DNA from: Mycolicibacterium cosmeticum
Lineage (GTDB): Bacteria > Actinomycetota > Actinomycetes > Mycobacteriales > Mycobacteriaceae
DNA: 64,000 nt
Direction of reading: 5' to 3'
Assembly: GCF_000613185.1 (NCBI RefSeq)
Contig: NZ_CCBB010000001.1
Coordinates: 2,604,001 to 2,668,000 of the forward strand
The first letter of the stretch is position 1. Each line of letters begins with the position of its first letter. The notes under the pieces were generated by a model. It searched no databases. It saw nothing but the letters and a program-made list of their open reading frames with translations, and had not been told where the DNA came from. Below, piece by piece: positions 43,143 to 60,971 of the stretch. The translations under genes were made by a program, and so were the position numbers.

Positions 43143-45005
43143 ATGAGGCACACTCTGCCGGCCTCCCCGGCTCGGGTCCTGAGCCAAATGGTGGTCGCGG
43201 TCATCCTGTCGGCCACCGTGTCCGCCGTGGCGCTGATCGCGATCGACCGCGTCGAATGGCCGGCGTACAACTCGTCGAACCAGTTGCACGCGTTGACCAC
43301 CGTCGGCCAGGTCGCCGCCCTGGCCGGGATCTTCGCCGCCGGGTGGCTGTGGCGGCGCGGCCGGCGGGTGCTGGCCAGGGTCACGGCGGTGGCCATGCTG
43401 TCGGCCCTGTCGGTGGTCACCCTGGCGATGCCGCTCGGCGCCACCAAGCTGTACCTCTTCGGCATCTCGGTCGACCAGCAGTTCCGCACCGAATACCTGA
43501 CCCGGCTGGCCGACAGCCCGGCCCTTCACGACATGACCTACCAGGGCCTGCCGCCGTACTACCCGCCCGGCTGGTTCTGGATCGGCGGCCGGCTGGCCGC
43601 CCTGACCGGCACCCCGGCCTGGGAGATGTACAAGCCGTGGGCCATCGTCTCGATCACCGCCGCCTGCGCCGTCGCCTTCGTGCTGTGGAAGGCGATGATC
43701 CGGTTCGAGGCCGCCCTCGTGGTCACCACCGCGACCGCCGTCGTCACCCTGGCCTACACCTCCACCGAGCCGTACGCGGCCGTCATCACGGTGCTGCTGC
43801 CGCCGGTGTTCGTGCTGGCCTGGTCGGGACTGGGCGGGAAGGCCAGAAACGGCGGCTGGGGCGCGGTGCTCGGGGTCGCGATCTTCCTGGGTGCCGCTGC
43901 ACTGACCTACACGCTGCTGCTGGCTTACGCGGCCTTCACCATCGCCCTGATGGCGCTGGTGTTGACGGTGTCCCGGCGCAGCCTGGACCCGCTGCTGCGG
44001 CTGGTGGTCGTCGGAGTCCTCTCGGGGGCCATCGCACTGATCGGCTGGGGGCCGTGGCTGCTGGCCGCCGCCACGGGCACCCCCGCCGACACCGGTACCG
44101 CCCAGCACTATCTGCCCGACGACGCGGCGGTGCTCACCTTCCCGATGTTCCAGACCACCCTGCTGGGGGCGCTCTGCCTGCTCGGCACCGTGTGGCTGGT
44201 GATGTACGCGCGGTCGTCCACCCGCGCCGGCGCGCTGACGGTCGGCGTGGTGGCCGTCTACCTGTGGTCGCTGCTGTCCATGCTCACCACCCTGATGGGC
44301 ACCACGCTGCTGTCGTTCCGGCTGCAGCCGACCCTGACCGTGCTGCTCGCCGCCGCCGGCGCCTTCGGCTTCATCGCGGTGACGCAGGCCGTCGCGGCGC
44401 GCTACCAGCACCCGGGCCGGCATCTGGTCGCCGTCGCCGCCACCATCGGGGCCATCGGCGCCGTCACCTTCAGCCAGGACGTGCCCGACGTGCTGCGCTC
44501 GGACATCACCGTCGCCTACACCGACACCGACGGCTACGGGCTGCGCGCCGACCGCCGCCCGCCCGGGTCCGAGCAGTACTACCGGGAGATCGACGCCCGC
44601 ATCCGGCAGGTGACCGGCCGGCCCCGGCACGACACCGTCGTGATGACCGCCGACTACAGCTTCCTGTCCTATTACCCGTACTACGGCTTCCAGGGCCTCA
44701 CCTCGCACTACGCCAATCCGCTGGCCCAGTTCAAGGAGCGCTCCGCGGCCATCGAGAGCTGGGCGCTGTTCACCGAACCCGACCAGCTCATCGGGGCGCT
44801 GGACACGCTGCCGTGGGCCCCGCCCACGGTGTTCCTGATGCGCCGGGGCGGGCCGGACAGTTACACGTTGCGCCTGGCGGCCGACGTCTATCCCAACCAG
44901 CCCAACGTCAAGCGCTACCAGGTGGAACTCAACGCGGCCATCTTCGACGACCCGCGCTGGGACGTCTCGACGGCCGGTCCGTTCACGCTGGCGATCCGGC
45001 GGTGA
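43143..45005 (+). CDS. aftA: Galactan 5-O-arabinofuranosyltransferase AftA
   Basis: A 620-residue GT-C membrane enzyme. It transfers the first arabinofuranose from decaprenyl-phosphoryl-arabinose to galactan. About eleven hydrophobic helices are followed by a periplasmic C-terminal domain of about 190 residues. The first periplasmic loop with [20 protein letters not shown], and the later loop [20 protein letters not shown], match this family. Corresponds to Rv3792 (643 residues). It is followed by embC after 100 bp of repeat-like DNA. Confidence 0.92.
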
Positions 45006-45026: not shown

Positions 45027-45032
45027 TAGCAT
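45027..45032 (+). promoter_or_regulatory. -10 box upstream of the embC leader peptide
   Basis: TAGCAT fits TANNNT and ends 8 nt before the GTG at 45041. It would start a leaderless message at the uORF and so give embC a promoter inside the aftA-embC gap. Confidence 0.45.
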
Positions 45033-45040: not shown

Positions 45041-45109
45041 GTGAGCGACGCCTGCGGAGCGAACCGACAGATGACACGCGGCTGCCGAACCTGCGAGGCC
45101 GCCGCGTGA
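45041..45109 (+). CDS. Candidate leader peptide (uORF) overlapping embC
   Basis: GTG 45041 opens a 22-codon frame that ends at TGA 45107-45109, sharing GTGA with the embC start. The peptide has three cysteines (positions 5, 15 and 18). A TAGCAT -10 box sits 8 nt upstream, so it could be leaderless. The DNA (GTGAGCGACGCCTGCG, later CTGCCGAACCTGCGAGGCCG) looks like a diverged copy of an element I recall as encoding MSERLRANNRQ at many mycobacterial gene starts, with small indels. It may therefore be a repeat rather than a regulator. Confidence 0.35.
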   Translation: MSDACGANRQMTRGCRTCEAAA

Positions 45110-48100
45110 CCAACCACCGCACTGCGCGGCTGATTGCCATCGTCGCGGGCCTGCTGGGCACCGTGCTCGCCGTGGCAACCCCGCTGCTGCCCGTCACCCA
45201 GACCACCGCGCAGCTCAACTGGCCCCAGAACGGGACACTCACCAGTGTCGACGCCCCGCTGATCGGCTACGTCGCCACCGACCTGAACATCTCGATCCCG
45301 TGCAGCGCCGCCGCGGGCCTCTCGGGGCCACGCAACGTCCTGCTGTCCACCGTGCCCAAGCAGGCACCGAAGGCCGTGGACCGCGGGCTGCTCATCGAGC
45401 GGGTGGGCGACGACCTGCTGGTGATCGTGCGCAACACCCCGGTGGTCAGCGCGCCGCTGAGCCAGGTGCTCAGCCCGGCCTGCCAGAAGCTCACCTTCAC
45501 CGCCCATGCCGACAAGGTCACCGGCGAGTTCGTCGGCCTGTATGCCAGCCCCGACCAGAACGGCGAGGTCGACCCGGACCGGCCGCTGCGCGGCGAACGC
45601 GGTGGCTATGACTTCCGCCCCCAGATCGTCGGCGTCTACACCGACCTGGCCGGCCCCGCCCCGCCCGGCCTGACCTTCTCGGCCACCATCGACTCGCGCT
45701 ACAGCAGCTCGCCCACCTGGATCAAGATGCTGGCGATGATCCTCGGGGTGGCCGCCACCGCCATCTCGCTGCTCGCCCTGCACCGCCTCGACGTGGCCGA
45801 CGGCATGCGGACCCGCCGCGTCCTGCCACCGCGCTGGTGGTCGGTCACCCCGCTGGACGGCGTCGTCACCGCGATCCTGGTGTGGTGGCATTTCGTCGGC
45901 GCCAACACCTCCGACGACGGCTACATCCTCACCATGGCCCGGGTGTCCGAACACGCCGGGTACATGGCCAACTACTACCGCTGGTTCGGTACACCCGAGG
46001 CCCCGTTCGGCTGGTACTACGACCTGCTCGCGCTGTGGACACACGTGTCCACCGCCAGCGTCTGGGTTCGGCTGCCCACCCTGGTGATGGCGCTGGCCTG
46101 CTGGTGGGTGATCAGCCGGGAGGTGATCCCCCGCTTGGGCCGGGCCGTGAAACGCAGCCGCGCGGCGGCGTGGACGGCGGCGGCGATGTTCCTGGCGTTC
46201 TGGCTGCCGCTGAACAACGGGCTGCGCCCGGAGCCGATCATCGCCCTGGGCATCCTGTTGACATGGTGCTCGGTGGAACGCGGGGTGGCCACCAGCCGAC
46301 TGCTGCCGGTCGCCATCGCCACCATCATCGGCGCGCTGACCCTGTTCTCCGGCCCCACCGGGATCGCCGCGGTCGGTGCCCTGCTGGTGGCCGTCGGACC
46401 GCTGCGCACGATCGTGGCCGCGCACACCTCACGCTTCGGGCGCCTTGCTCTGCTGGCGCCGATCGCGGCGGCCGCGACGGTGACGATCATCCTGATCTTC
46501 CGCGATCAGACGCTGGTCGGTGAGATCGAGGCCAGCAGCTTCAAATCGCTGATCGGGCCGAGCCTGAGTTGGTTCGACGAGCACATCCGCTACGAGCGGT
46601 TGTTCACCACCAGCCCGGACGGCTCCGTGGCCCGCCGTTTTGCCGTGCTCACCCTGCTTCTGGCGCTTGCCATTTCGGTGGCGGTGTCGCTGCGCAAGGG
46701 CCGTATCCCCGGCACCGCGGCGGGTCCGGCGCGGCGGATCATCGGCATCACCATCATCTCGTTCTTGGCGATGATGTTCACCCCCACCAAGTGGACGCAC
46801 CACTTCGGCGTGTTCGCCGGGCTGGCCGGTTCGCTCGGCGCGTTGGCCGCGGTCGCGGTGACCGCGGCGGCCATGCACTCCAAACGCAACCGCACCATCT
46901 TCACCGCGGCGGTGCTGTTCATGATGGCGCTGTCGTTCGCCACCGTGAACGGGTGGTGGTACGTCTCGAATTTCGGTGTGCCGTGGTCGAATCAGTTCCC
47001 CGAGTGGCATTTCGGGTTCACCACCATGCTGCTCGGGCTTTCCGTGCTCGCCTTGTTGGTGGCCGCGTGGCTGCACTTCTCCGGCCAGGACCGACCCCGG
47101 CCGTGGTCCCGGTTCACCCACGCCCCGTTGGCGGTGGCGGCCTGGGTGGTGGTGATCTTCGAGGTGCTGTCACTGACCCTCGGGGTCACCGAGCAGTACC
47201 CGGCGTGGTCGGTCGGCCGGTCCAACCTGGACGCGCTGACCGGCAAGACCTGCGGCCTGGCCGACGACGTGATGGTGGAACAGGACCCCAACCTCGGCAT
47301 GCTGCTGCCGGTCGACAAGCCGATCGGCGAGGCGCTCGGGGGTACCACCGCTGCGAACTTCGGGCCGAACGGGATTCCGGCGGACGTGTCGGCCGACCCG
47401 GTGATGGAGCAACCGGGCGGCACCAACTTCGCCGATACCGACTCGGGCCCGGTCACCGCGAGCGAACCCGGCACCGAGGGCGGCACCACCGCCGTGGCCG
47501 GCGTCAACGGTTCCAAGGCGCGGCTGCCGTACAACCTGAACCCGGCCCGCACCCCGGTGATGGGCAGCTGGCGGCCCGGTGCCCAGCAGCCCGCCGCGCT
47601 GCGCTCGGCGTGGTATCGCCTGCCACCGCGCGGCGAACGCGGCCCGCTGCTGGTGGTCGCCGCCGCCGGCCGGTTCGATCCCGGTGAGGTGGTGGTGCAG
47701 TGGGCCACCGACGAGCAGGCCGCCAAGAACACCCCCGGCGGGGGCCTGGGCTTCGCCGATGTCGGGGCCGCGCCCGCATGGCGCAATCTGCGCGCGCCCA
47801 TGTCGGCGATCCCCGAGGATGCCACCCAGGTCCGGCTGGTGGCCACCGACGACGACCTGGCGCCCCAGCACTGGATCGCGGTCACCCCGCCACGGATCCC
47901 GCACCTGCGCACACTGCAGGACGTCGTCGGGTCGACGGATCCGGTGCTGCTGGACTGGCTGGTGGGCCTGGCGTTCCCGTGCCAGCGTCCGTTCGGCCAC
48001 CAGAACGGTGTCACCGAGGTACCCAAGTGGCGGATCCTGCCGGACCGGTTCGGCGCCGAGGCAAACTCACCGGTGATGGACTACCTGGGCGGCGGCCCGC

Positions 48101-48288
48101 TGGGGATCACCGAGTTGCTGCTGCGTGCCACGCCGGTGCCGACGTATCTGAAGGACGATTGGTTCCGCGACTGGGGATCACTGCAGCAACTCACCCAGTT
48201 CTATCCCAACGCCGTCCCGGCACGCATCGATCTGGGCACCGCGACCCGCAGCGGATGGTGGAGCCCGGCACCGCTTCGACCTTCCTGA
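45106..48288 (+). CDS. embC: Arabinosyltransferase EmbC
   Basis: A 1060-residue GT-C enzyme that extends arabinan, mainly of lipoarabinomannan. The identity as EmbC is clear from segments such as ATPLLPVTQTTAQLNWPQNG, TVPKQAPKAVDRGLL and GAEANSPVMD. The catalytic acidic pair is Asp270-Asp271 in NTSDDGY. The C-terminal periplasmic carbohydrate-binding domain follows the last helix at about residue 690. GTG 45106 gives a shorter N-terminus than the 1094-residue M. tuberculosis protein. It is not followed by embA as usual but by three other genes. Confidence 0.95.
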   Translation: MTNHRTARLIAIVAGLLGTVLAVATPLLPVTQTTAQLNWPQNGTLTSVDAPLIGYVATDLNISIPCSAAAGLSGPRNVLLSTVPKQAPKAVDRGLLIERVGDDLLVIVRNTPVVSAPLSQVLSPACQKLTFTAHADKVTGEFVGLYASPDQNGEVDPDRPLRGERGGYDFRPQIVGVYTDLAGPAPPGLTFSATIDSRYSSSPTWIKMLAMILGVAATAISLLALHRLDVADGMRTRRVLPPRWWSVTPLDGVVTAILVWWHFVGANTSDDGYILTMARVSEHAGYMANYYRWFGTPEAPFGWYYDLLALWTHVSTASVWVRLPTLVMALACWWVISREVIPRLGRAVKRSRAAAWTAAAMFLAFWLPLNNGLRPEPIIALGILLTWCSVERGVATSRLLPVAIATIIGALTLFSGPTGIAAVGALLVAVGPLRTIVAAHTSRFGRLALLAPIAAAATVTIILIFRDQTLVGEIEASSFKSLIGPSLSWFDEHIRYERLFTTSPDGSVARRFAVLTLLLALAISVAVSLRKGRIPGTAAGPARRIIGITIISFLAMMFTPTKWTHHFGVFAGLAGSLGALAAVAVTAAAMHSKRNRTIFTAAVLFMMALSFATVNGWWYVSNFGVPWSNQFPEWHFGFTTMLLGLSVLALLVAAWLHFSGQDRPRPWSRFTHAPLAVAAWVVVIFEVLSLTLGVTEQYPAWSVGRSNLDALTGKTCGLADDVMVEQDPNLGMLLPVDKPIGEALGGTTAANFGPNGIPADVSADPVMEQPGGTNFADTDSGPVTASEPGTEGGTTAVAGVNGSKARLPYNLNPARTPVMGSWRPGAQQPAALRSAWYRLPPRGERGPLLVVAAAGRFDPGEVVVQWATDEQAAKNTPGGGLGFADVGAAPAWRNLRAPMSAIPEDATQVRLVATDDDLAPQHWIAVTPPRIPHLRTLQDVVGSTDPVLLDWLVGLAFPCQRPFGHQNGVTEVPKWRILPDRFGAEANSPVMDYLGGGPLGITELLLRATPVPTYLKDDWFRDWGSLQQLTQFYPNAVPARIDLGTATRSGWWSPAPLRPS

Positions 48289-48294
48289 AAATCC

Positions 48295-48323
48295 TTGACA
48301 GTGTTCTGATCTCGCTCTAAGCG
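48295..48323 (+). promoter_or_regulatory. Candidate promoter after embC
   Basis: TTGACA (48295-48300) is a perfect -35 hexamer. It is followed after 17 nt by TAAGCG, a weak -10. It lies 7 nt past the embC stop codon and upstream of the DUF7159-type gene. The rest of the gap to 48462 shows no other feature. Confidence 0.4.
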
Positions 48324-48461
48324 GGGATTAAGGAAACGGCCGCACTTCGGCGCGCCCGCTATCGTGGAGCCAGGACTGCACAACTGGTGAGTCGTGATTG
48401 TTTGCTGACAACGATGTCACGCACCACGATCGAGAACAGACAAGACAGGGATTGCGTGGTA

Positions 48462-50129
48462 ATGGACGTCGTGCTCGGGATAGCGCTGACGGTCGACAGC
48501 GTTCGGTTGGTGCTGGTCGACGGATCCGACGGTGATCTGATCGATCAGGACACTTTCGACATCGACCGCACCGGCGGTGTCGAAAGTGCCACTGTCACAG
48601 AGCATGTCGTCAACGCGGTGCTGGGGACGTACGGCGTGGCCGCCGCCAACGGGCACACGGTGGCGCGCATCGCGGTCACCTGGACCGACGACGCGGCCGA
48701 GGACGCCGGGTTGCTGGTGGAGGCGCTCGGCGAGGTCGGGATGCCGAATGTCGTTGCCGTGACAGGCTGCGACGCGGCCGAGACGTTCGTCGAGCAGATG
48801 GCCGAGGCGGCCGGTGAGACCTGCGCGGCCGCCTGCCTGATCGAAGGCAGCCAGGCGCCGGTGGCGTATATCGCCGTCATGCACGCCACCGCCGCCGGGG
48901 TGCGGCGGATGCGCAGCCGGGTGGTGGACGCGGCCGATCACCGGCAGTTGGCCCTCTCGGTGCGCGGTGCCTGCGCGGAATGCGTCGCAGAAGCCGACCG
49001 GGTGGCGGTGTTCGCCGCCGGATCTGCGTCAGGGCTCACGGGATTGCTTGCCGGAGAACTCAATTCGATCCTATCGACGCAGGTGATCATCCCGCAGAAC
49101 GCGACGCTGGCCTTTGCCCACGGCGCCGCGCTCACCAATGCCGGCACGTACCGGCGACTGCACGTGGTCGGTGCGCGGGCCGCGATCGCGTCCGGGGGCG
49201 GCGCGGTCCCACCCGCGGTGTTCGTGCCGCGCACCGCCAAACTGATGGCCATCCCGGGGCTCACCGACGTTCCGGAGCCGCCCGCCCCGGCCGTCCCGGA
49301 CAGCACGCGGCAGGTCCGGACGCTGCAGGCCGTCGTCGGCGGCGGCGTGCTGGCCTTCGTCGCCGCGCTGTCCATGTACGTCGGCAGCCAGATCCGCGAC
49401 ACCGGTGAACAGACCGCGCAGGCCAAATCCCGCCCGGCAGAGGTCACTCCGGCGGCGGCCATCGAACCGGCACCGCCCGCGGCGGCCATCGAACCGGCAC
49501 CGCCGGCAGCGGCCATCGAGCCGGCACCGCCCGCGGCGCCCCCGGCAGCTCCGCCGGCCGCACCCGCGCCGGCGCCCGTCGCGCCGGCCCCGGTGGTCAT
49601 CCCGGCCGCGGTCACCGCCACCCCGCCCCCGGCGCCCGCCGTCCCACCCAACCCGTTGCAGCTGCTGGCCGCCGTGGCCGGACCGCAACTGGCGGCCCTG
49701 AATCAGGGCCTGCACGGCAACATGCCACCGGTGACCGACCCGGCGCTGAACAACACCGCGCTGCAGGTGGCGCAGAACGTCGTTCCGCCGGCGATCGACC
49801 GGGCGAATCAGCCCGTGGACCTACCCGCCGTGCCGCCGGTGACCAACGGCCCCATCACATTGCCGCCGCTGCGCGACATCATCGACGGCATCCGCCCGGA
49901 CCGCCAGAATGAGGACGCGCACTTCGGTCCGAACGTGCCGACGCCGGCCACGCCGTATTACCAGCCCTCCGGGGCGAGCGTAGCGACGGGAGAAGCACCC
50001 GGGGCGAGCGTAGCGACGGGAGAGGCACCCGGGGCGAGCGCAGCGACGGGAGAAGCACCCGGGGCGAGCGCAGCACCGGCGGACCCGCCGCCGCTGCCCG
50101 CGGAGGCCCCGCTACCGCCGGCACCTTAG
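48462..50129 (+). CDS. DUF7159-type mycobacterial protein with Pro/Ala and tandem-repeat tail
   Basis: A 555-residue protein. Residues 1-265 are a globular domain starting MDVVLGIALTVDSVRLVLVD, with an actin/Hsp70-like beta-strand pattern typical of DUF7159. One membrane helix follows at about 288-308 (VVGGGVLAFVAALSMYVG). The extracellular part is Pro/Ala-rich. It contains a nine-residue IEPAPPAAA repeat and, at the end, three and a half copies of a ten-residue GAS-VATGEAP unit encoded by 30-bp DNA repeats. Function unknown. ATG 48462 or GTG 48456 may be used. It is the first of three genes between embC and embA. Confidence 0.7.
   Translation: MDVVLGIALTVDSVRLVLVDGSDGDLIDQDTFDIDRTGGVESATVTEHVVNAVLGTYGVAAANGHTVARIAVTWTDDAAEDAGLLVEALGEVGMPNVVAVTGCDAAETFVEQMAEAAGETCAAACLIEGSQAPVAYIAVMHATAAGVRRMRSRVVDAADHRQLALSVRGACAECVAEADRVAVFAAGSASGLTGLLAGELNSILSTQVIIPQNATLAFAHGAALTNAGTYRRLHVVGARAAIASGGGAVPPAVFVPRTAKLMAIPGLTDVPEPPAPAVPDSTRQVRTLQAVVGGGVLAFVAALSMYVGSQIRDTGEQTAQAKSRPAEVTPAAAIEPAPPAAAIEPAPPAAAIEPAPPAAPPAAPPAAPAPAPVAPAPVVIPAAVTATPPPAPAVPPNPLQLLAAVAGPQLAALNQGLHGNMPPVTDPALNNTALQVAQNVVPPAIDRANQPVDLPAVPPVTNGPITLPPLRDIIDGIRPDRQNEDAHFGPNVPTPATPYYQPSGASVATGEAPGASVATGEAPGASAATGEAPGASAAPADPPPLPAEAPLPPAP
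49971..50075 (+). repeat. 30-bp tandem repeat, about 3.5 copies
   Basis: Units start at 49971, 50001, 50031 and 50061 (the last is partial). Each begins GGGGCGAGCG, then (T or C)AGCGACGGGAG. They are in frame in the DUF7159-type gene. The core is the same as the single copy at the end of glfT1 (35224). Confidence 0.85.
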
Positions 50130-51760
50130 TGCCGGCCGGCCAGGATGGCTTCGATATTGCGCTCGGCCAGCGCGGTGATCGACATGAACGGATTGCAGCC
50201 GATATAGCCGGGGACCAGTGACGCGTCGTTGACGTAGAGGTTGTCGTAGCCGTTCACCCGGCCGAAGGCATCGGTGGCCTTGCCCCGGACACATCCGCCC
50301 AGCGGGTGAACGGTGTTGGAGGCGAAGACGTTTCCATCGAACAGGTCGTCGCGGTAGTCGACGCCGTTGGCCTGGGTGACCTTGTCGAAGACGACCTTGG
50401 CCCGCTCGATCAGATGATCGGTGTGACTCTGCGGCCAGTCGATGCGGATGGAGTCGGACGCCTTGTCGTAGGTGATCTCGGAGCGGTCACCGGTCTTGAC
50501 CATGACGTAGTAGCCGAGGGCGTTGGTCTCGACCGGCAAAGGTAGCGAGAACATGCTGGCGTACACCGGATTGTCGGGGTCGTTGCGGCCGTCCAGGTTG
50601 ATCATGCCCAGCAGGGACTGCTTGGTGCCCACCGGGTCGGCCGCGCCGGTGTTGTGCGCCACCATCACATCGCCGTTGTTGCCGTAGCCGCGGCCGATCT
50701 CGTCGGACAGGTCAGGCAGCGTGCCGGTCTCGCGGGCGCGCAACAACAGCTCGTTGGTGCCCAGCACACCGGCGGCCAGATACAGCTGCTCACAACCGAA
50801 TTCGTCGCGGGACTGCTCGGCTCCCCACCGGTCGATGCGCCGGGTTGACACCACGTACTCACCGGATTTCTCGCGACGGATACCGGTGACCTCGGTCAGG
50901 GTCTGCAACGTCACCTTGCCGGTCTGCACCGCCGCCGCGATGTAGGTCTGGTCCACGCTGCCGTCGCGGCCGTAGTTGTTGCCGAACTGGCACTCCCAGT
51001 CCAGCGCCGACAGCGGCACCTCACCATTGGCCTCGCGCACCATGTAGTCGAACGAATAGGCGCTGCCGTTGTAGTCGACCTGGTATCCAGCGGCGTCGGC
51101 GTACTGACGGCCGACGCGCGCGTACTGGAAGTAGGGCGTCTGCTCGAACCAGTCCATGTTGCGGTAGTTGATCCGCAGCGCGGCCTTCGCGCGCTCGACA
51201 TAGGTGCCCAGGAATTCCGCCGGGTCGATATCGGGAAAGGCCGCCCGCACCTGGTCCGGCGTCGGGATGGCCGCGATCGCGGCATTGACCATCGAGCCGC
51301 CGCCGACCCCCGTCCCGCGGAACACGTGATGGGCACCATGGGTGACCTTCTCGCAGATGCCGGCCTGCTTGGGCTGGGCGGACGGATTGTGGGCGGCGAC
51401 CGCGGAGATGGACACACCCCGGTACGACGTCACGATGCTGGGCGGGACGTCGGCGAACCAGCCCGCTCGGGTGTCCGCGGGCAGCATCTTGGTGAACCGT
51501 TTGCCGTCCGCGTCGGCGGTGTCCCACAGCCGGCCGCGCTCCAGCACCAGGGTCTGCACCCCGGCCTGAGCCAGCCTCAGCGCACTGACCCCGCCGCCGT
51601 AGCCGCTGCCGATCACGATCGCGCGGTAATACTTGCGCGAATCCGGACGATGTTCCGATCTGGAAAGGAGATATGCCCCCGCACCGGCACCGCCGAGGAC
51701 GATTCCCGTGGTAGCGCCCAGGAATTTACGTCTTGTCAACTTAACTTGCGGTAGTGTCAC
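50126..51760 (-). CDS. Tat-exported GMC oxidoreductase (cholesterol-oxidase-like)
   Basis: A 544-residue FAD-dependent oxidoreductase. The N-terminus has a twin-arginine signal (Arg10-Arg11 in TRRKFLG, then a hydrophobic stretch). The dinucleotide motif GSGYGGG is at 51-57. GTGVGGGSMVNAA and the C-terminal NTVHPLGGC with the final NPFMSITALAER are as in cholesterol oxidases and GMC alcohol oxidases. It probably oxidises an alcohol outside the membrane. GTG 51760 is chosen because GAGAGG lies just ahead. It is convergent with the DUF7159 gene and divergent from alkB. Confidence 0.85.
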   Translation of the reverse strand: MTLPQVKLTRRKFLGATTGIVLGGAGAGAYLLSRSEHRPDSRKYYRAIVIGSGYGGGVSALRLAQAGVQTLVLERGRLWDTADADGKRFTKMLPADTRAGWFADVPPSIVTSYRGVSISAVAAHNPSAQPKQAGICEKVTHGAHHVFRGTGVGGGSMVNAAIAAIPTPDQVRAAFPDIDPAEFLGTYVERAKAALRINYRNMDWFEQTPYFQYARVGRQYADAAGYQVDYNGSAYSFDYMVREANGEVPLSALDWECQFGNNYGRDGSVDQTYIAAAVQTGKVTLQTLTEVTGIRREKSGEYVVSTRRIDRWGAEQSRDEFGCEQLYLAAGVLGTNELLLRARETGTLPDLSDEIGRGYGNNGDVMVAHNTGAADPVGTKQSLLGMINLDGRNDPDNPVYASMFSLPLPVETNALGYYVMVKTGDRSEITYDKASDSIRIDWPQSHTDHLIERAKVVFDKVTQANGVDYRDDLFDGNVFASNTVHPLGGCVRGKATDAFGRVNGYDNLYVNDASLVPGYIGCNPFMSITALAERNIEAILAGRH

Positions 51761-51872
51761 AAACACCTCTCAGCAAATAAACCCCGAACCGCCGCCCGCC
51801 TTTGCGTAACGCAGGATTCCAGGTTAAATAGTCACCACAGCTAATCGCTCGATACAACGGCAAGGACACAAC
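51761..51872. promoter_or_regulatory. Divergent control region of the GMC oxidoreductase and alkB
   Basis: This 112-bp gap is less GC-rich than the genes. It holds the GMC ribosome site, a small palindrome TGCG-TAA-CGCA (51803-51813), AT-rich TTAAATAGT (51824-51832), and AAGGA before alkB. Both genes must be driven from here. No recognised operator class is evident. Confidence 0.45.
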
Positions 51873-53021
51873 GTGGCAGATCGAGAGGGCCTCCGCACGC
51901 CGAGGTGGCGTGACGCGAAGCGATACCTCTGGCTGCTCGGTGCCATTGTGCCTGGCCTTGTGCCGTTGGCGTGGCTACTCGTCCAGCTGACCGGCCAGGA
52001 AGTGTTCTGGTGGGTGGGGCCGGTCATGGCCTTCATGATCGTCCCTGTACTGGATCACCTGGTCGGAAGCGCCGAATCCGACGAATCCGAGCGCACCCTG
52101 GACTGGCTGGAAGACGACGCCTTCTACCGTTGGGTCACCTACCTCTACCTGCCGAACCAGTACCTGTCGCTGGTGTTCGCGTGCTGGCTGTGGAGCGGCG
52201 GCGGCTGGGTCACCATGAGCTGGCTGGACAAGGCCGGACTGATGCTCACCGTCGGAATTGTGGGCGGAATCTCAATCAACGCCGCACATGAGCTCGGTCA
52301 CCGGCGCGCCACCGCCGAACGCCGGCTCAGCAAGCTCGCCCTGGCACAGACCGGCTACGGCCACTTCTACGTCGAGCACAACCGCGGCCACCACGTGCGG
52401 GTGGCGACCGCCGAGGATCCGGCCAGCGCGCGGCTCGGCGAGACGGTCTACCACTTCATCCCGCGCTCGGTGCTGGGCGGCCTGCGGTCGGCCTGGAGCC
52501 TGGAACGCAACCGGCTGGCCCGGGCCGGCAGGTCGCCGTGGACGCTGCGTAACGAGGTGCTCAACGCCTGGTTGTTGAGCGCCGTGATGTTCATCGGGCT
52601 CAACGTGTGGTTCGGCGCCGTCGTCGCACCCTGGCTGATCGGTCAGGCCGTCATCGGGGTGTGCTTGCTGGAGTCGGTGAACTATCTGGAGCACTACGGG
52701 CTGCGCCGGCAAAGGTTGGCCACCGGCCGCTACGAGCGGGTCGGGCCGCAGCACTCGTGGAACAGCAACACACTCATCGCCAATGTGTTCCTGTTCCATC
52801 TGCAGCGGCACTCCGATCACCACACCAACCCGCAGCGGCGATACCAGACGCTGCGCCACGCCGACGAGGCGCCGCAGCTGCCGTTCGGGTACGGCACGAT
52901 GCTGGTGCTGGCCTGGTGCACCCCGATCTGGCGGCGGGTGATGGATCCCCGGGTGCTCGACCACTACGACGGCGACATCAGCCGGGCCGCCCTGCACCCG
53001 GCCCGGACACCGGCCGCGTAA
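51873..53021 (+). CDS. alkB: Alkane 1-monooxygenase AlkB
   Basis: A 382-residue membrane-bound non-haem diiron hydroxylase. All histidine boxes are intact: HELGH (139-143), EHNRGHH (168-174) and LQRHSDHH (310-317), with the NYLEHYG motif (270-276) diagnostic of AlkB rather than desaturases. About six helices. It hydroxylates medium- to long-chain n-alkanes at the terminal carbon and needs rubredoxin plus rubredoxin reductase; neither is encoded nearby. The start is GTG 51873. It lies directly upstream of embA. Confidence 0.92.
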   Translation: MADREGLRTPRWRDAKRYLWLLGAIVPGLVPLAWLLVQLTGQEVFWWVGPVMAFMIVPVLDHLVGSAESDESERTLDWLEDDAFYRWVTYLYLPNQYLSLVFACWLWSGGGWVTMSWLDKAGLMLTVGIVGGISINAAHELGHRRATAERRLSKLALAQTGYGHFYVEHNRGHHVRVATAEDPASARLGETVYHFIPRSVLGGLRSAWSLERNRLARAGRSPWTLRNEVLNAWLLSAVMFIGLNVWFGAVVAPWLIGQAVIGVCLLESVNYLEHYGLRRQRLATGRYERVGPQHSWNSNTLIANVFLFHLQRHSDHHTNPQRRYQTLRHADEAPQLPFGYGTMLVLAWCTPIWRRVMDPRVLDHYDGDISRAALHPARTPAA

Positions 53022-53079
53022 CGCATCCGAAAAGTCGGGCACCGCCGCGGGTCGCCCGGCCGGGCCCATAGCTACGTCG

Positions 53080-53085
53080 CATACT
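53080..53085 (+). promoter_or_regulatory. Candidate -10 box of embAB
   Basis: CATACT ends 10 nt before GTG 53096. Because embA is cut off from embC by the inserted genes, some promoter in the 75-bp gap after alkB, or read-through from alkB, is needed for embAB expression. Confidence 0.35.
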
Positions 53086-53095
53086 CTTGAGCCTC

Positions 53096-56000
53096 GTGCC
53101 CGCCAGGACTGCCCGACTCGTCGCCATCATCGCGGGCATCGTCGGCCTGCTGTTGTGTGCGCTGACCCCGCTGCTTCCCGTCAACCAGACCACGGCCACC
53201 ATCACGTGGCCGCAGGCCCCGAGCGCCGACGGGTTCGTCGGCGACGTGACCGCCCCACTGGTCTCCGGCGCGCCGCTGGCCCTCGACGTCTCCATCCCGT
53301 GCCAGGCGATGGCCTCGCTGCCGGCCTCCGGCGGACTGGTGTTCTCCACCATCCCGCCCGGCGGCATCGACGCGACCCGCAACGGGCTGTTCGTGCGCGC
53401 CACCTCCGACACCGTCTTCGTCGCGTTCCGTGACACCGTCACCGCCGTGGCGCCGCGCGCCGCCGTCAGCTCCGGGGCCTGCAGCACGTTGCACGTCTGG
53501 GCCAACTCCGGTGGCGTCGGCGCCGACTTCGCGGGGATCCCCGGTGCCACCGGCACCGCGGCCGTCGAGAAGAAGCCTCAGGTGGCCGGCATCTTCACCG
53601 ACCTCAAGGTCGCTCCCCAGCCCGGTCTGAGCGCGCGGGTGGACATCGACACCCGGTTCATCTCCAAGCCGACGGCGCTCAAGGCGATCGTGATGGATAT
53701 CGGCCTGCTCAGCGTGCTGATCTCGATCGTGGCGCTGGCCCTGCTTGACCGCACGGCCGGGCACCGGGTGCGGCACGCCTGGGCACGGTTCTGGAAGGTC
53801 GGCTGGGCGGTCTGGCTTGCCGACGCGGCGGTGATCGGTGGGCTGCTGGTGTGGCATGTCATCGGCGCGATTTCCTCCGACGACGGCTACAACCTGACCA
53901 TGGCGCGGGTGTCCGGCGAGGCCGGGTACGTGGCCAACTACTACCGCTACTTCGGCACCTCGGAAGCTCCGTTCGACTGGTACCAGCTGGTGCTCAAACA
54001 CCTGGCCACCGTCAGCACCGCCGGGGTGTGGATGCGGCTGCCGGCCCTGCTGGCCGGTATCGGCACCTGGATCCTGGTGTCGCGCTGGCTGATCCCCCGG
54101 CTCGGGCGCACGCTGGCCACCAACCGGATCGCCGTGTGGACGGCGGCCGCGGTGTTCCTGGCCGCCTGGTACCCGTTCAACAACGGGTTGCGCCCCGAAC
54201 CCCTGATCGCCTTCGGTGTGCTGGCGGTGTGGGCGCTGGTGGAGTACACCATCGCGGCCCGGCGGCTGTGGCCCACCGCCCTGGCCATCGTCGTCGCGGT
54301 GTTCACCGTGACGCTGGCACCGCAGGGGCTGCTGGCACTGGCCCCGCTGCTGGTCGGCGCCCGCGCCGTGGTGCTGGTGATCCGCGACCGTCGTGCGGTG
54401 CTGCCCGCCCTGGCGGCGTTCGCCGCGGCGGCGTCGCTCATCGCGATCGTCGTGTTCCGGCGCCAGACGCTGGCCACCGTCGCCGAGGCGGTGCGCATCA
54501 AGTACACCGTCGGACCGACCATCTCCTGGTACCAGGAATTCCTGCGCTACTACTTCCTCACCGTCGAGGACAGCGTGGACAGCTCCCTGACCCGGCGCTT
54601 CGCGGTGCTGACCATGCTGCTGTGCCTGTTCGGCATGATCGCCGTGCTGCTGCGCAAGCGCCGGATCCCCGGCCTGGCCGGCGGCCCGACCTGGCGGCTG
54701 ATCGGCATCTGCGCGGTCGGCCTGCTGCTGCTGCACTTCACGCCGACCAAATGGGCCGTGCAGTTCGGCGCGTTCGCCGGCATCGCCGGGCTGTTCGGCG
54801 CGGTGACGGCGTTCACGTTCGCGCGGGTGGGCTTGCACAGCCGGCGCAACCTCGCGCTGTACGTGACCGCACTGCTATTCGTGCTGGCGTGGGCGACCTC
54901 GGGGCTCAACGGCTGGTTCTACGTCGGCAACTACGGGGTGCCGTGGTTCGACCGGCAGCCGGTGCTGGCCGGTCAGCCCGTCACCACCATGTTCCTGGTA
55001 CTGGCCATCATCACCGGTGTGCTGGCCGGCTGGCTGCACTTCCGCATCGACTACGCCGGGCACACCGAGGTGGCCGACACCCGCCGTAACCGGGTGCTCG
55101 CCTCGACCCCGTTGCTGGTGGTGGCGATCATCATGGTGGTGCTCGAAGTCGGTTCGATGGCAAAGGGTTTCGTTCAGCGTTACCCCGCCTACACCACCGC
55201 CAAGGCCAACCTGTCGGCGCTGACCTCCGGGCTGTCGGGCACCAGCTGCGCGATGGCCGACGACGTCCTGGTCGAGGCCGACCCGAATGCCGGTATGCTG
55301 CAACCGGTTCCGGGCCAGACGTACGGCCAGTACGGTCCGCTTGGCGGGGAGAACCCGGTCGGCTTCACCCCCAACGGCATCAGCGACACCCTGGAACCCC
55401 CGAAGCCGGTGGTGGCCAACCCGGGCACGGTGAACTCCGACGGCTCGCCCAACAAACCCAACGTCGGCATCGCGTACGCCGCGGGTACCGGCGGTGGTTA
55501 CGGGCCCACCGGAGTGAACGGCTCGAATGTGTTCCTGCCGTTCGGATTGGACCCGGCGCGCACCCCGGTGATGGGCAGCTACAAGGAGAACTCCACCGCC
55601 GCCAAGGCCACCTCGGCCTGGTACCAGCTGCCGCCGCGCACCCCGGACCGGCCGCTGGTGACCGTCGCGGCGGCGGGGGCGATCTGGTACTACGACGAGG
55701 AAGGCGACTTCCACTACGGCCAGTCGCTGAAACTGCAGTGGGGTGTGCACCGGCCCGACGGCAGTTATCAGGCCCTCGATTCGGTGCAGCCGATCGACGT
55801 GTTCGCCCAATACGCTTGGCGCAACCTGCGTTTCCCGCTGGCGTGGGCGCCGCCGGAGGCCAACGTCGCCCGGCTGGTGGCCGACGACCCGAACCTGTCC
55901 GACGACCAGTGGTTCGGTTTCACGCCGCCGCGGGTGCCGCAACTGCAGACCGCGCAGCAGTTCCTCGGCTCGCAGACCCCGGTGATGCTCGACATCGCCA

Positions 56001-56338
56001 CCGCCGCGAACTTCCCCTGCCAGCGGCCGTTCGCCGAGCACCTCGGGGTGGCGGAGCTGCCGCAGTACCGCATCCTGCCCAACGTCAAACAAGTGGTGGT
56101 GTCGTCGAATATGTGGCAGTCCGCCCAGAAGGGTGGCCCCTTCCTGTTCATCCAGGCGCTGCTGCGTACGTCGACCATCCCGACGTATCTGCGCGACGAC
56201 TGGTATCGGGACTGGGGCTCGCTGGAGCGGTACGACCCGGTCGTGCCGCCGGCCCAGGCTCCGGTGGCCGACATCCAGCAGGGCACCCAGCGGGTGTTCG
56301 GTTGGAGTAGGCCCGGACCGATCAGGGCGCTGCCGTGA
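53096..56338 (+). CDS. embA: Arabinosyltransferase EmbA
   Basis: A 1080-residue GT-C enzyme. With EmbB it builds the terminal hexa-arabinose of arabinogalactan. EmbA-specific segments include [30 protein letters not shown] and the C-terminal [12 protein letters not shown]. The catalytic acidic pair is Asp262-Asp263 in ISSDDGYN. The start is GTG 53096; a TTG at 53087 is less likely. The stop shares GTGA with embB, so the two are coupled as usual. Confidence 0.95.
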
Positions 56339-59300
56339 ACGGGGCCATGAGCGACATGAAAGACAACGTGAAGACCATCCGGTGGATCGCGATCATCGCC
56401 GGTCTCATCGGCTTCGTGTGCGCGGTGGCCACGCCACTGCTGCCGGTGGTGCAGACCACGGCGACGCTGAACTGGCCGGCGGCAAGCGCGACGTCGGGTA
56501 CCACGGGGCAACTGAGCAGTGTCACCGCACCGCTGATCACCCAGACCCCGGTGGACATGACGGTGACGGTGCCGTGTGAGGTGATCAGGTCCGCACCGCC
56601 GGGCGGCGTGCTGGTGCTGGGCACCGCACCGAAGAACGGCAAGCAGGCCGCACTCAACGCGCTGTTCGTCAACGTCACGTCCTCGCGGGTGGACATCACC
56701 GACCGCAACGTGGTGATCGCCAGCGTGCCGCGCGCGAAAGCCGCTGCCTGCCAGCGCATCGAGGTCACCTCGTCGGAGCAGGGCACGTTCGCCACCTTCG
56801 TCGGGCTGCCGGGCGGTGACCAGCGCACCGGCTTTCCCGACCCCAACCTGCGCCCGGCCATCGTCGGGGTGTTCACCGAGCTGACCGGACCTGCGCCGCA
56901 AGGGTTGTCGCTGTCGGCGACAATCGACACCCGGTTCACCACCAAACCCACCGCGCTCAAACTGGCTGCCATCCTGCTGGGCATCGTGGCCACCGTCGTT
57001 GCGCTGTTCGCGTTGTGGCGCCTCGACCAGTTGGACGGCCGGCGGATGCAGCGGCTGATCCCGACCCGCTGGCGTACCGTCACCCCGGTCGACGGTGTGG
57101 TGGTCGGCGGGTTCCTGCTGTGGCATGTGGTCGGTGCCAACTCCTCCGACGACGGCTACATCCTCCAGATGGCCCGGGTCGCCGACCACGCCGGCTACAT
57201 GTCGAACTACTTCCGCTGGTTCGGCAGCCCGGAGGACCCGTTCGGCTGGTTCTACAACCTGCTGGCCCTGATGACCCATGTCAGCGACGCCAGCATCTGG
57301 ATGCGGCTGCCGGATCTGGTGTGCGCGCTGGTGTGCTGGCTGCTGCTGTCCCGGGAGGTGCTGCCCCGGCTGGGGCCCGCCGTCATCGCGAGCCGGCCCG
57401 CGCTGTGGGCGGCGGGGTTCGTGCTGATGGCGGCGTGGATGCCGTTCAACAACGGTCTGCGCCCCGAGGGGCAGATCGCCACCGGCGCGCTGATCACCTA
57501 CGTGCTGATCGAACGGGCCATCACGTCGGGCCGGCTCACCCCGGCCGCCATGGCGATCATCTCCGCCGCGTTCACCCTGGGTATCCAGCCCACCGGGCTG
57601 ATCGCGGTGGCGGCGTTGCTGGCCGGTGGCCGGCCGATCCTGCGCATCCTGGTGCAGCGCCGGCGTCGGGTCGGGTTGTGGCCGCTGATCCTGCCGCTGC
57701 TGGCGGCCGGCACCGTGATCCTGACGGTGGTGTTCGCCGACCAGACCCTGGCAACGGTGTTGGAGGCCACCAGGATTCGCACCGCGATCGGGCCCAGCCA
57801 GGAGTGGTACACCGAGAACCTGCGCTACTACTACCTGATCCTGCCGACCGTGGACGGCTCGCTGTCGCGCCGGTTCGGCTTCATGATCACCGCCCTCAGC
57901 CTGTTCGCCTCGATGTTCATCATGTTGCGCCGCAAGCGCATTCCGGGTGTGGCCCGCGGACCGGTATGGCGGTTGATGGGCATCATCTTCGCGACGATGT
58001 TCTGCCTGATGTTCACCCCCACCAAGTGGGTGCACCACTTCGGGCTGTTCGCCGCCGTGGGTGCGGCGATGGCCGCCGTGGTGACGGTGCTGGCGTCGCC
58101 GGTGGTGCTGCGCTCGGCCCGCAACCGGATGGCGTTCACCTCGGCCGTGTTCTTCGTGATGGCGCTGTGTTTCGCCACCACCAACGGCTGGTGGTACGTG
58201 TCCAGCTACGGGGTGCCATTCAACAACGACAAACCCGCGATCGGCGGGATCACGGTCAGCGCCATCTTCTTCGCGTTGTTCGCCATCACCGCGGTGTGGG
58301 CGTACTGGCTGCACTTCGCGCCGCGCAACGGTGGCGAGAGCACGGTGATCCGGCGGCTGACGGCCGCGCCGGTGCCGGTGGCGGCGGGCTTCATGGTGAC
58401 GGTGTTCGTGGCGTCCATGCTGTTCGGCGTGGTGCGCCAGCACGGGACCTACAGCAACGGGGAATCGAATATCAAGGCGTTCGCCGGCGGCTGCGGCCTG
58501 GCCGACGACGTGCTGGTCGAACCCGACCCCAACCAGGGCTTCCTGACCGCGCTGCCCGGTGACTACGGTCCCCTCGGCCCGTTGGGCGGCGTCAAGCCGG
58601 TGGGCTTCACCCCCAACGGGGTGCCGGATCACATTGTCGCCGAAGCGATTCGGCTGACCCTGCCGATGCCGGGCACCGACTACGACTGGGACGCCCCGGT
58701 GAAGCTGACCACCCCCGGTATCAACGGTTCGACCGTGCCGCTGCCGTACGGCCTGGACCCGACCCGGGTGCCGCTGGCCGGCAGCTTCGCCAGCGGCGCG
58801 GCCCAGCAGGAGGCCCGACTGGCCTCGGCGTGGTACCAGCTACCGCCGCCGGACGCCGCGCACCCGCTGGTGGTCGTCACCGCGGCGGGCACCATCACCG
58901 GCAACAGCATCTTCAACGGCCTCACCCAGGGGCAGCCGGTGGAACTCGAGTACGGCAAGCCCGGACCCGACGGCACGCCGGTGGCCGCCGGGCGGGTGGT
59001 GCCCTATGACATCGGCCCGCTGCCGTCCTGGCGCAACCTGCGCTACGACCGGCGCCAGATCCCCGGCGATGCCACGTTCGTTCGTGTTGTCGCCGAGGAC
59101 AAGTCGCTGTCGCAGGGTGACTGGGTCGCGATCACCCCGCCGCGGGTGCCGCAGCTGAAGACGATCCAGGAGTACGTCGGGTCGCAACAACCGGTGCTGA
59201 TGGACTGGGCCGTCGGCCTGGCGTTCCCCTGCCAGCAGCCGATGCTGCACGCCAATGGCGTCACCGACGTGCCGAAGTACCGGATCACGCCGGACTACAA

Positions 59301-59541
59301 CGCGAAGATGAAGGACACCGACACCTGGCAGGACGGCATCAACGGCGGCCTGCTCGGCATCAGTGACCTGCTGCTGCGGGCCCATCTGATGGCGACCTAC
59401 CTGAACAAGGACTGGGGCCGGGACTGGGGTTCGCTGCGCCGATTCGAGACCATCGTCGATGCGCCACCCGCCGATATCGAATTGGGCACCGCGACGCACT
59501 CGGGCCTGTACTCCCCCGGCCGGATCCGGATCAAGCCGTAG
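56335..59541 (+). CDS. embB: Arabinosyltransferase EmbB
   Basis: A 1068-residue GT-C enzyme and the main ethambutol target. The catalytic acidic pair is Asp272-Asp273 in [14 protein letters not shown]. The methionine equivalent to M. tuberculosis Met306 is kept (Met279 from this GTG); the residue before it is Gln rather than Gly. Alternative start ATG 56347 also fits. About fifteen helices and a C-terminal carbohydrate-binding domain end in [13 protein letters not shown]. The gene ends the emb cluster. Confidence 0.95.
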
Positions 59542-59616: not shown

Positions 59617-60810
59617 TCAGGTGGGGCGCAACAGCTCCGCGGCCTCGGTCTGGTAGGCGTGCTCGGCCCAACCCTGCGGGGTGGCGTCGAAGCGCAGATC
59701 GGTGACGCCCGGGTCCGCCCCGGCCGCGAGCAGCCGCTCGATCAGATCCACGTCGCCCGCCCACGCCGCGTGGTGCAGCGGGGTGGCACCTTCGGCGTCG
59801 CGCTGGTTGGGGTCGGCGGGGAACGTCACCGGCCGCAACTGCGCGCCGGAGGTGTCGATGCCGTGCCGGGCCAGCAGCGCCAACCGCTCGGCGAAGCCGT
59901 GTTCGGCGGCCCACTGCACCTGCCGCCGCCACATCTGATCGCGGCTCTCCATCGCCTCACCGAGGCGGCGCTCCCACGGACTGGGACCGGCTCCGGCCAG
60001 CCCGTGGGCGAACAGCAGCCGCAGGTGCGAGTCGTCGGCGCCGAACATCCGGTTGTACAGCGTCTGCTGATCGGCCGGATGCGCCCCGCGCTGCAGCAGC
60101 AGGGCGGCCAGTTCGTCGGCGTCGGGGTGCCGTGGCTGCCGGCGCGGCCCCTGCTCACCCTCGCCGAACACCCCGGTCAGCACGGTGAACGGGGTCGACA
60201 TGCCGCACCACAGGTAGCCGTCGTCGGGGTCGGCACCGGCGTCGAGCAGGACGCGGGCCGCGGCCGGAGCGTCACCGGGCACACGGCTGTAGGCCAGGTA
60301 CAGCAGCGGCGACCACCGATACGGCCCGCCGCGGGCGGTCGCCGATTCGGTGCGCAGGTGATGGCGCAGGGCGTCCGGGTCGGCGGCCGCGGCGGCCGCC
60401 CAGATGTGTCTGCCCACCAGATCCGGCTGCGCGGCCAGCAGGTCCGCGGCGGCCTGCCGGCGCGGTGGGGCGTCGGCGGCGTCGTACCGCAGCACCGCCA
60501 GGGCGCAGAACCGGTCCTGCGGCGCCAGGGCATCCTCGTCCACACCGTCGGGGTCGACGCTGAGTCCGGCGGCCGTGCGCATGTAGCCCACCAGCGCCGG
60601 CCAGCCGGTGAAGCCGTACTGTCGCGCGACCGTCAGCTGCGCGTCGTGTAGCGCGAAAGCCGCTCGGGCAAGCGCTATTTCGGGTCGTGGATGGTGGCTG
60701 CGCACCGTCGCGCGGGCGTCCGCGGTCCCGGCGCGCACGGCCCGTTGCAGGGCGCGGGCGTCGGCGCGGAGCCGAACGAGGGACGGATTGGCGGGAAGTG
60801 TGCTGGCCAT
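59617..60810 (-). CDS. Ankyrin-repeat protein
   Basis: A 397-residue cytosolic protein. The ATG at 60810 is preceded by GAGGAGG on the minus strand; the longer frame upstream is not protein-like. Ankyrin units are visible as SPLLYLAYSRVPGDAPAAARVLLDAGADPDD and, most clearly, at the end as EGATPLHHAAWAGDVDLIERLLAAGADPGVTD. The N-terminal 70 residues (ARQYGFTGWPALVGYM) match the leader often found in such actinobacterial proteins. It probably binds another protein; the partner is unknown. Confidence 0.85.
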   Translation of the reverse strand: MASTLPANPSLVRLRADARALQRAVRAGTADARATVRSHHPRPEIALARAAFALHDAQLTVARQYGFTGWPALVGYMRTAAGLSVDPDGVDEDALAPQDRFCALAVLRYDAADAPPRRQAAADLLAAQPDLVGRHIWAAAAAADPDALRHHLRTESATARGGPYRWSPLLYLAYSRVPGDAPAAARVLLDAGADPDDGYLWCGMSTPFTVLTGVFGEGEQGPRRQPRHPDADELAALLLQRGAHPADQQTLYNRMFGADDSHLRLLFAHGLAGAGPSPWERRLGEAMESRDQMWRRQVQWAAEHGFAERLALLARHGIDTSGAQLRPVTFPADPNQRDAEGATPLHHAAWAGDVDLIERLLAAGADPGVTDLRFDATPQGWAEHAYQTEAAELLRPT

Positions 60811-60971
60811 GACGGCCTCCTCTCGGGTGCCCGGCGTCCGCGAGGTCGGGCCGAGAAGAGGTCGGTCCTGGTGTGGTACTGCTGCAGGGGGGCTGAGCCC
60901 CTTCGAGCGGACGTCGGGCGGTCCTGCGCGCCTGCACCGCAACCTACCCGACTGCGCCGTACCGTCAAGGC

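Follow-up and report, generated by a model that had tools for sequence, protein, structure and literature searches.

A three-gene insert between embC and embA of Mycolicibacterium cosmeticum, upstream of a conserved predicted embA promoter

The emb region of M. cosmeticum and of described mycobacteria

The arabinosyltransferases encoded by embCAB are the targets of ethambutol, and the three genes, which in Mycobacterium tuberculosis are ordered embC, embA, embB with aftA presumably upstream of embC, are commonly termed one operon. The arrangement in M. avium, reportedly described by Belanger in 1996, is embR-embA-embB, embR being a regulator of emb genes. According to a study of M. tuberculosis (PMC2885622), embC and embA are separated by an intergenic region only, embA is transcribed with embB and apart from embC, and the embA -10 box (TACCAT) is functional by mutagenesis. 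The locus analysed here, within a window of 64,000 nucleotides of Mycolicibacterium cosmeticum DNA, resembles that of M. tuberculosis in having a predicted -10 box directly before embA (TACTCT in place of TACCAT) and in the close association of embA and embB (overlapping genes here, one transcription unit there), but 4.8 kb with three genes, one of them antisense, separate embC from embA. As in M. avium, embC is followed by extra coding DNA before the conserved embA box is reached; unlike embR, the genes found here (for a DUF7159 protein, a GMC oxidoreductase and AlkB) have, to our knowledge, no link to emb genes. The features are:

43143..45005, plus strand: aftA (arabinofuranosyltransferase); Pfam AftA_N 1.8e-165, AftA_C 3.8e-74
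45027..45032, plus strand: embC -10-like box TAGCAT, 8 nt before GTG 45041
45106..48288, plus strand: embC; three Emb Pfam domains; one of the three Emb loci of the genome
48463..50129, plus strand: DUF7159 gene (PF23717)
50126..51766, minus strand: GMC oxidoreductase of cholesterol-oxidase type (PF22500 and PF05199)
51767..51872, no strand: divergent GMC/alkB intergenic region of 106 bp, from the coordinates
51873..53021, plus strand: alkB (alkane 1-monooxygenase); FA_desaturase family, match to 8f6t
53082..53087, plus strand: putative embA -10 box TACTCT (TANNNT), 8 nt 5' of GTG 53096; predicted leaderless start
53096..56338, plus strand: embA; start GTG 53096, listed ORF opening at TTG 53087; three Emb Pfam domains
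56335..59541, plus strand: embB, overlapping the embA stop; three Emb Pfam domains

The genome search found three Emb loci, each encoding a protein that has the N-terminal, the membrane and the C-terminal Emb domain, 3' of aftA. The embC stop (48288) and the embA GTG (53096) are 4,807 bp apart, and the split by three genes that the earlier note had described is borne out by Pfam domains, by the coordinates and by three further assemblies with the same arrangement, one of which (L005, the same as L117) is complete from aftA to embB; embC is unseen in the other two (L004 and L118) because the contig stops inside the DUF7159 gene. The families named in that note, including a Tat-type GMC protein, stand, with the GMC gene corrected to the minus strand: it is divergent from alkB and its stop overlaps that of the DUF7159 gene (50126/50129), so that a single transcript from embC to embB would have to traverse a 1.6-kb antisense gene. 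No transposase or integrase bounding the insert was found, the three genes of the interval matching other Pfam families, and no strong flanking repeat pair was found in the window. The claim that no repeat pair marks the edges thus holds for strong repeats, but one weak 20-nt match (17 of 20) is present between 48369-48388 and 53102-53121 (block-shuffle p 0.004 in the window and 0.046 in L005), with no significant counterpart in seven loci of a second clade (B, below) or in a locus from a MAG (L054). A bounding repeat formed by duplication of the embA 5' end was rejected because the match is weak and was not seen in clade B.

The inserted genes and their carriers

The DUF7159 ORF opens at GTG 48387, and its match to PF23717 (29.8 bits, cut-off 27) begins at residue 27, near ATG 48463; the C-terminal part of the gene contains repeats of 27 and 30 nt, and the genome search gave four more matches to the family, three of them above the cut-off. 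The GMC protein, in which a twin-arginine motif (TRRKFLG) followed by a hydrophobic stretch was recognized by eye as a putative Tat export signal, belongs by sequence to the cholesterol oxidase family: it aligns with cholesterol oxidase 1b4v over residues 44-542 (4e-126) and scores 94 bits against the NCBIfam cholesterol oxidase model, the cut-off of which is 850. With the secreted GMC cholesterol oxidase of Streptomyces it shares the family and, of the catalytic positions that we take to be Glu 361, His 447 and Asn 485, the His and the Asn; the Glu position in the alignment to 1b4v is Ser404 by hand count, and the catalytic set read from that alignment is incomplete. AlkB matches the solved alkane 1-monooxygenase 8f6t (2e-117, residues 9-379) and contains in that alignment all four histidine motifs (HELGH, HNxGHH, EHYGL and HSDHH) that presumably make up the list for the AlkB di-iron site; judged by these, the inserted gene is a true alkB, apparently complete. 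Two AlkB paralogues are encoded elsewhere in the genome. Hydroxylation of alkanes by AlkB uses rubredoxin as electron donor. The window's AlkB looks complete, like those of alkB-rubredoxin clusters, but motif scans found no rubredoxin-like frame or motif in the 106-bp gap between the GMC gene and alkB or in the rest of the window; elsewhere in this genome such a frame adjoins one AlkB paralogue (L116), and 8 of 45 divergent GMC-alkB pairs have such a frame between the two genes.

The expectation that the insert is clade-restricted was upheld for the three-gene content: DUF7159 occurs at the embC-embA junction in the window's clade (A) only, in 4 of 154 distinct loci, two of them cut by contig ends. 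The GMC-alkB pair is found at the same junction also in clade B (7 loci) and in one MAG (L054/L139), and none of 50 other GMC regions fetched showed an emb gene. The GMC and AlkB proteins of clades A and B each form a single clade (support 98 and 100). Arrivals of the pair number three on the EmbA and EmbB trees and two on the AftA and EmbC trees, and tests of the independence of the MAG copy gave p-AU 0.239 for GMC and 0.741 for AlkB.

The embA box and the embC-embA junction

In 154 of 154 loci an in-frame embA start is preceded, at 7-8 nt, by a TANNNT box (compared to about 3% of shuffles), that is, in 59/59 loci with an occupied junction, 94/94 with an empty junction and one that was not assigned, and the start codon behind it is GTG in every locus (154/154). 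No such box precedes embB (0/153 loci) or aftA (0/128), and a -10-like box with the same spacing before an in-frame GTG was found for embC in 125 of 135 loci; the window is not counted among the 125 because GTG 45041 does not share the reading frame of its embC ORF, which is listed from 45106. In the window 60 nt separate the alkB stop from the embA box, and in six of the seven clade-B loci the box lies 34-42 nt past the end of the alkB match, the seventh (L124) having alkB in two pieces. The earlier note gave the hexamer as CATACT; the box itself is conserved, but is better read as TACTCT, 8 nt before the GTG. Its presence in every locus and its homology to the mutagenised M. tuberculosis -10 argue for the separate embA promoter that the note had proposed, and this promoter is predicted from sequence to be active in M. 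cosmeticum. The further proposal that the insert could have uncoupled embC from embAB is not supported: the box is found in occupied and empty loci alike, and in M. tuberculosis, which has no insert, embA and embC are not co-transcribed, so the uncoupling did not come from the insert. It probably alters gene order rather than gene control.

Intervals of at least 300 bp were found at the embC/embA junction in 57 of 151 loci (window included), compared to 0/135 at aftA/embC, 1/153 at embA/embB and 0/126 at dprE2/aftA. Inserts in 8 of 114 loci at dprE1/dprE2 mean that embC/embA is not the sole open junction of the region, and since aftA/embC has no inserts despite the embC box, a unit's having its own promoter is not enough to account for the location of inserts. 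Contiguity of embC, embA and embB, assumed at the outset to be the norm, is true of 94 of 153 scored loci in a sample that is not random. Among 56 gene-called loci there are 13 insert contents with no gene in common, which rules out a single insertion event for all loci, and the state of the junction changes 11-12 times on the four gene trees (115 loci). One of the contents contains embR; a gene of the EmbR family, always encoded on the other strand from embA, lies in the junction in 19 loci, and the copy of L244, taken as a representative, aligns with M. tuberculosis EmbR (2fez, 6e-139). The best EmbR relative in the window's genome (59%) is elsewhere, at C1:1699793. In literature on the order and exchange of emb genes and on their start sites, no report of this junction was found among the matches listed.

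Gene histories and competing explanations

The partner of the window is one clade for AftA, EmbC, GMC and AlkB and another for EmbA-EmbB. Clades A and B group together in the AftA and EmbC trees (SH-aLRT 99), both of which reject the union of A with the fortuitum group (p-AU 3e-5 and 0.002), whereas EmbA+EmbB reject A + B (p-AU 1.3e-45). For dprE2, A + B has p-AU 0.366 and A with the fortuitum group is rejected (p-AU 3.36e-70); the species relation is based on rpoB, and gyrB identities are mixed. By identity, clade A tends towards B in AftA, is nearly balanced between B and the fortuitum group in EmbC and in the first 120 columns of EmbA, and tends towards the latter beyond them; on this measure the seam is not sharp. 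The explanation considered probable is that embC is one transcription unit and embA-embB another, with a tolerated GMC-alkB(-DUF7159) insert at the seam of an exchanged embAB block. Transcription of embAB would start at its own leaderless promoter, and with the -10 box directly before embA, DNA could settle between the embC stop and the box, harming neither unit. The divergent GMC-alkB pair would have arrived in the common ancestor of clades A and B, and the DUF7159 gene would have been added next to embC in clade A alone, unless it was lost from B. Exchange of the promoter and the embAB block as a unit between lineages, the presumed cause of the tree conflict, would leave the insert where DNA segments of differing ancestry meet, and AlkB and the GMC enzyme would be passengers as regards arabinan synthesis.

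It is very unlikely that read-through from an alkB promoter into embA-embB lets alkanes raise arabinogalactan synthesis independently of LAM, a reading along the lines of the alkane-linked control that the earlier note suggested. AlkB looks complete, and alkB is immediately 5' of embA in all 11 loci of clades A and B (the window, L004, L005 and L118-L125), co-directional with it and 65-74 nt away in the window, where no terminator-like site is listed between the two, so that some read-through from alkB may occur; but every carrier has an intact embA box and unrelated or opposite-strand genes occupy the same place in many relatives, which rules out an alkane-linked operon as the main reading. 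The M. tuberculosis study describes an embA promoter with no significant change with growth phase and no induction by ethambutol or ofloxacin, its activity being higher on solid than in liquid medium (PMC2885622). An ancestral interrupted order, from which contiguous embCAB arose by repeated deletion, is highly improbable: parsimony counts are blind to gain versus loss, and the first large clade of the tree (L184 to L181) has an occupied junction in 35 of 38 loci (two empty, one not assigned), but deletions in a single ancestral insert would not account for 13 contents without a shared gene.

Possible, if rather doubtful, is repeated homologous import of embAB blocks, the upstream end of which brings or captures foreign DNA, so that the inserts are import edges and not a sign of mere tolerance. 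The distance matrices of 115 loci form two blocks, {AftA, EmbC} and {EmbA, EmbB}; supported branches in conflict are 11-16 of 48-65 across the embC/embA junction versus 3/48 and 3/65 between AftA and EmbC; and aftA/embC has a promoter box yet takes no inserts, all of which fit such import. The fortuitum group, however, is also placed in conflict between trees, yet in 14 of its 17 loci the junction is empty, and when adjacent gene halves are compared, the conflict of EmbA with EmbB (9/45, 9/46) exceeds that of EmbC with EmbA (5/47, 7/52). Over their full lengths, EmbA and EmbB conflict in 9/65 and 7/61 supported branches. Under the preferred reading of separate units around a tolerated insert, embAB together with its promoter may be a block open to exchange, but conflict within embAB is also high. 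A broader statement, plausible but somewhat short of an even chance, is that embA-embB with its leaderless promoter is a horizontally exchanged module, that aftA-embC has another history, that the embC/embA seam is a breakpoint of recombination as well as a place where unrelated genes have landed repeatedly, and that the arabinosyltransferases for AG and LAM in one species can differ in ancestry.

In the loci sampled, embC and embA-embB look like separate units with partly different histories that are often split by other genes. This matters for operon annotation, for selecting model species in which to study emb regulation and for phylogenies based on emb genes, and the variety of inserts ahead of a single conserved predicted promoter constitutes a natural test set.

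Genes between embC and embA

The earlier note had embC and embA split by three genes, and all three are present in the interval between the following window positions; the genome is of 6.46 Mb.

48288: embC stop
Between embC and embA, plus strand: DUF7159 ORF
Between embC and embA, minus strand: GMC oxidoreductase
Between embC and embA, plus strand: alkB
53096: embA start (GTG)

The stops of the DUF7159 and GMC genes overlap, and 106 bp separate the divergent GMC and alkB genes. AlkB residues 9-379 align with the solved alkane 1-monooxygenase 8f6t (2e-117); the GMC protein matches cholesterol oxidase 1b4v (4e-126) and by sequence appears to belong with the cholesterol oxidases, and the position that we take to be their catalytic glutamate is a serine. 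Direct repeats of 27 nt and 30 nt lie in the C-terminal part of the DUF7159 gene (49422-50079). A 20-nt stretch just past embC (48369-48388) matches the embA start (53102-53121) at 17 of 20 positions, with weak statistics, and is possibly a relic of an older junction. An ankyrin-repeat ORF 3' of embB (59617-61341, minus strand) overlaps an opposite-strand ORF of 361 aa; at coverage of at least 60% it matches only L004, L005 and L118 of the window's clade (94, 86 and 73%), many loci ending near embB.

EmbA is 99% identical to that of Mycolicibacterium canariasense and 97% to that of Mycolicibacterium sp. J2. A relative of the GMC protein (E ≤ 1e-100) was found in 62 of 297 genomes, the window's own counted, and lies at the emb site in 11: three of clade A, the window's clade (G000, G286 and G254, the contig of the last stopping short of embC), seven of clade B (G187, G200, G121, G178, G096, G198, G034) and one MAG (G041). 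The other 50 fetched GMC regions (49 genomes; at most about 9 kb per side, less at contig ends) contained no emb gene, and three of these 50 also had no AlkB. The clade restriction that the earlier note proposed to look for holds for the three-gene content, the DUF7159 gene being found at this junction only in the window, L004, L005/L117 and L118 (4 of 154 distinct loci, two of which stop at a contig edge); the GMC-alkB pair is shared with clade B and the MAG. Clades A and B form one clade in the GMC tree (support 98) and in the AlkB tree (100). With the window, 58 GMC-alkB pairs were scored: 45 divergent, the remaining 13 tandem or in other arrangements. Eight of the divergent pairs have a rubredoxin-like frame between the two genes, and the 11 scored emb-site pairs have none; a stricter rubredoxin motif gave 6 of 57. 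One locus, L133, has an extra loose match to the motif, unlike a rubredoxin. In clade B locus L124 the alkB match (10783-11918) is split into two overlapping pieces, as in the shorter locus L092, and the embC-to-GMC spacers of L119, L122, L124 and L125 carry repeated inverted elements around CCAGGTA that by eye resemble small intergenic palindromes.

Inserts and promoter boxes across the emb loci

Three sets of loci were scored, none of them a random sample: 80 named loci (the best-matching among 217 relatives), 80 genus survey regions picked from about 150 matches listed of 396 genomes (one, L198, without EmbA), and 60 of 63 GMC places (the window's own, G035 and G157 left out). Deduplication gave 154 distinct EmbA loci (80 named, 65 survey, 8 GMC-selected and the window). 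An interval of at least 300 bp separates embC from embA in 57 of 151 loci, or 50 of 144 once seven loci fetched for carrying the GMC gene are removed, compared with 0 of 135 at aftA|embC and 1 of 153 at embA|embB. Other genes occupy embC|embA in 16 of the 80 named loci (63 empty, one undetermined) and 34 of the 65 survey loci. Inserts number 0/126 at dprE2|aftA and 8/114 at dprE1|dprE2 (1.9-3.4 kb; L006, L008, L011, L012, L018, L041, L056, L195); six of these eight loci are of the fortuitum group. In L073 (4440-14638), the sole scored locus with an embA|embB insert (1.4 kb), the embC-embA insert is the longest of all, at 5.6 kb. The embC|embA junction switches between occupied and empty 11-12 times on four gene trees (115 loci) and 13 times on the EmbA+EmbB tree (154 loci), counts that cannot separate gain from loss.

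Among 56 gene-called occupied loci, a set outside which the window, L004 and L118 fall, there are 13 groups with no insert gene in common. Pfam searches of 19 representatives found AAA ATPase, AbiEi-like, ArsR, AHSA1, AraC and GGDEF genes, a DUF222 gene paired with an integrase-core gene, a kinase, an isoamylase-like enzyme, a GlfT2-like galactofuranosyltransferase and a P-II-like protein. The galactofuranosyltransferase gene (L200, 12252-14156, plus strand) places a galactan gene beside the arabinan genes. An EmbR-family regulator occupies the gap in 19 loci, on the strand opposite to embA in all 19; one representative matches EmbR 2fez at 6e-139.

Scored without selecting loci on the box, a -10-like TANNNT precedes an in-frame embA start by 7-8 nt in all 154 loci (59/59 occupied, 94/94 empty, one undetermined). 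The start is GTG in 154/154, with a spacing of 8 nt at 144 loci and of 7 nt at the other 10, so a leaderless embA mRNA is predicted; 134/154 have a longer motif, TCSNNTANNNTYG-N4/5-YCGTG. Such a box precedes embC in 125/135 loci, embB in 0/153 and aftA in 0/128, and about 3% of shuffled sequences carry one; because the loci are related, these counts are not independent trials. The window's embC box (TAGCAT, 45027-45032) is followed by a GTG at 45041 that does not share the reading frame of the embC ORF, which is listed as opening at 45106; in L005 the GTG after the box is in frame.

Ancestry on the two sides of the junction

Group names (A, B, fortuitum, parafortuitum, rhodesiae) are our own. 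Mean identity of clade A to clade B is 90 for DprE1, 92 for DprE2 and 79 for AftA, and the rhodesiae group is also close to A (DprE1 87, DprE2 89); two identity classes are seen for DprE1/DprE2, and they do not match the grouping by EmbAB. For the EmbA C-half, A has 90 with the fortuitum group versus 81 with B, and for the EmbB halves 86 and 84 versus 77 and 72; EmbAB of B resembles that of the parafortuitum group (88, 83, 84). The AftA and EmbC trees unite A and B (support 99) and reject A with the fortuitum group (p-AU 3.05e-05 and 0.00218, A being two rows), and the EmbA+EmbB tree rejects A with B (log-likelihood 651 lower, p-AU 1.3e-45) and joins A to the fortuitum group (support 90, not starred), p-values that are stronger than in a blind test because the groups were picked after the identities were seen. 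By rpoB DNA, clade B genomes are closest to the window genome, taking ranks 1-5, 7 and 9 among the 26 full-length matches when J2 is set aside, and gyrB gives a mixed picture of its relatives. Most simply, A and B would be sister clades, with movement between lineages of embAB in B and of embAB, or else aftA-embC, in the fortuitum group.

Across the genus, the distance matrices of 115 loci separate into two blocks, {AftA, EmbC} and {EmbA, EmbB}. Among closer pairs the dip at the junction is shallow, adjacent halves correlating at 0.57 across embC|embA and at 0.61-0.84 elsewhere. Supported branches in conflict number 3/48 and 3/65 for AftA versus EmbC, 11-16 of 48-65 across embC|embA, and 9/65 and 7/61 for EmbA versus EmbB. 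In AftA, clade A is closer in identity to B (+2 to +15 points); in EmbC and the first 120 EmbA columns the two sides are roughly balanced, and beyond that point clade A is closer to the fortuitum group. Given this gradual shift and the conflict inside EmbA|EmbB, recombination appears to reach beyond the embC|embA junction.

Probable separate expression of embC and embAB

According to a study of M. tuberculosis (PMC2885622), TACCAT, homologous to the embA box, is a functional -10, an embC-embA co-transcript was not found and a 6.6-kb transcript spans embA-embB. This homology, with the box in every locus, supports the separate promoter before embA proposed in the earlier note, and transcripts may also read through from alkB into embA. 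The further suggestion, that the insert could uncouple EmbC from EmbA/EmbB, is not supported, given the M. tuberculosis result and the box at every empty junction; by inference, the two were already expressed separately before the window's insert arose.

If embC and embAB are separate units, a leaderless promoter of its own would let DNA settle upstream of embAB harmlessly. Such tolerance alone is insufficient for the insert pattern, because embC has its own box, yet aftA|embC lacks inserts in 135 loci. That absence fits a fair if rather improbable alternative, in which inserts gather at the edge of a recombined, exchanged embAB block; against recombination focused on the junction, adjacent halves conflict more at EmbA|EmbB (9/45, 9/46) than at EmbC|EmbA (5/47, 7/52). 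That embAB and its leaderless promoter are a horizontally exchanged module, with the embC|embA seam as both breakpoint and recurrent landing site, is a tentative reading somewhat short of an even chance. The best explanation, and a probable one, is that embAB has its own promoter, the gap tolerates inserts, the promoter and embAB form an exchangeable block, and GMC and AlkB would be passengers as regards arabinan synthesis.
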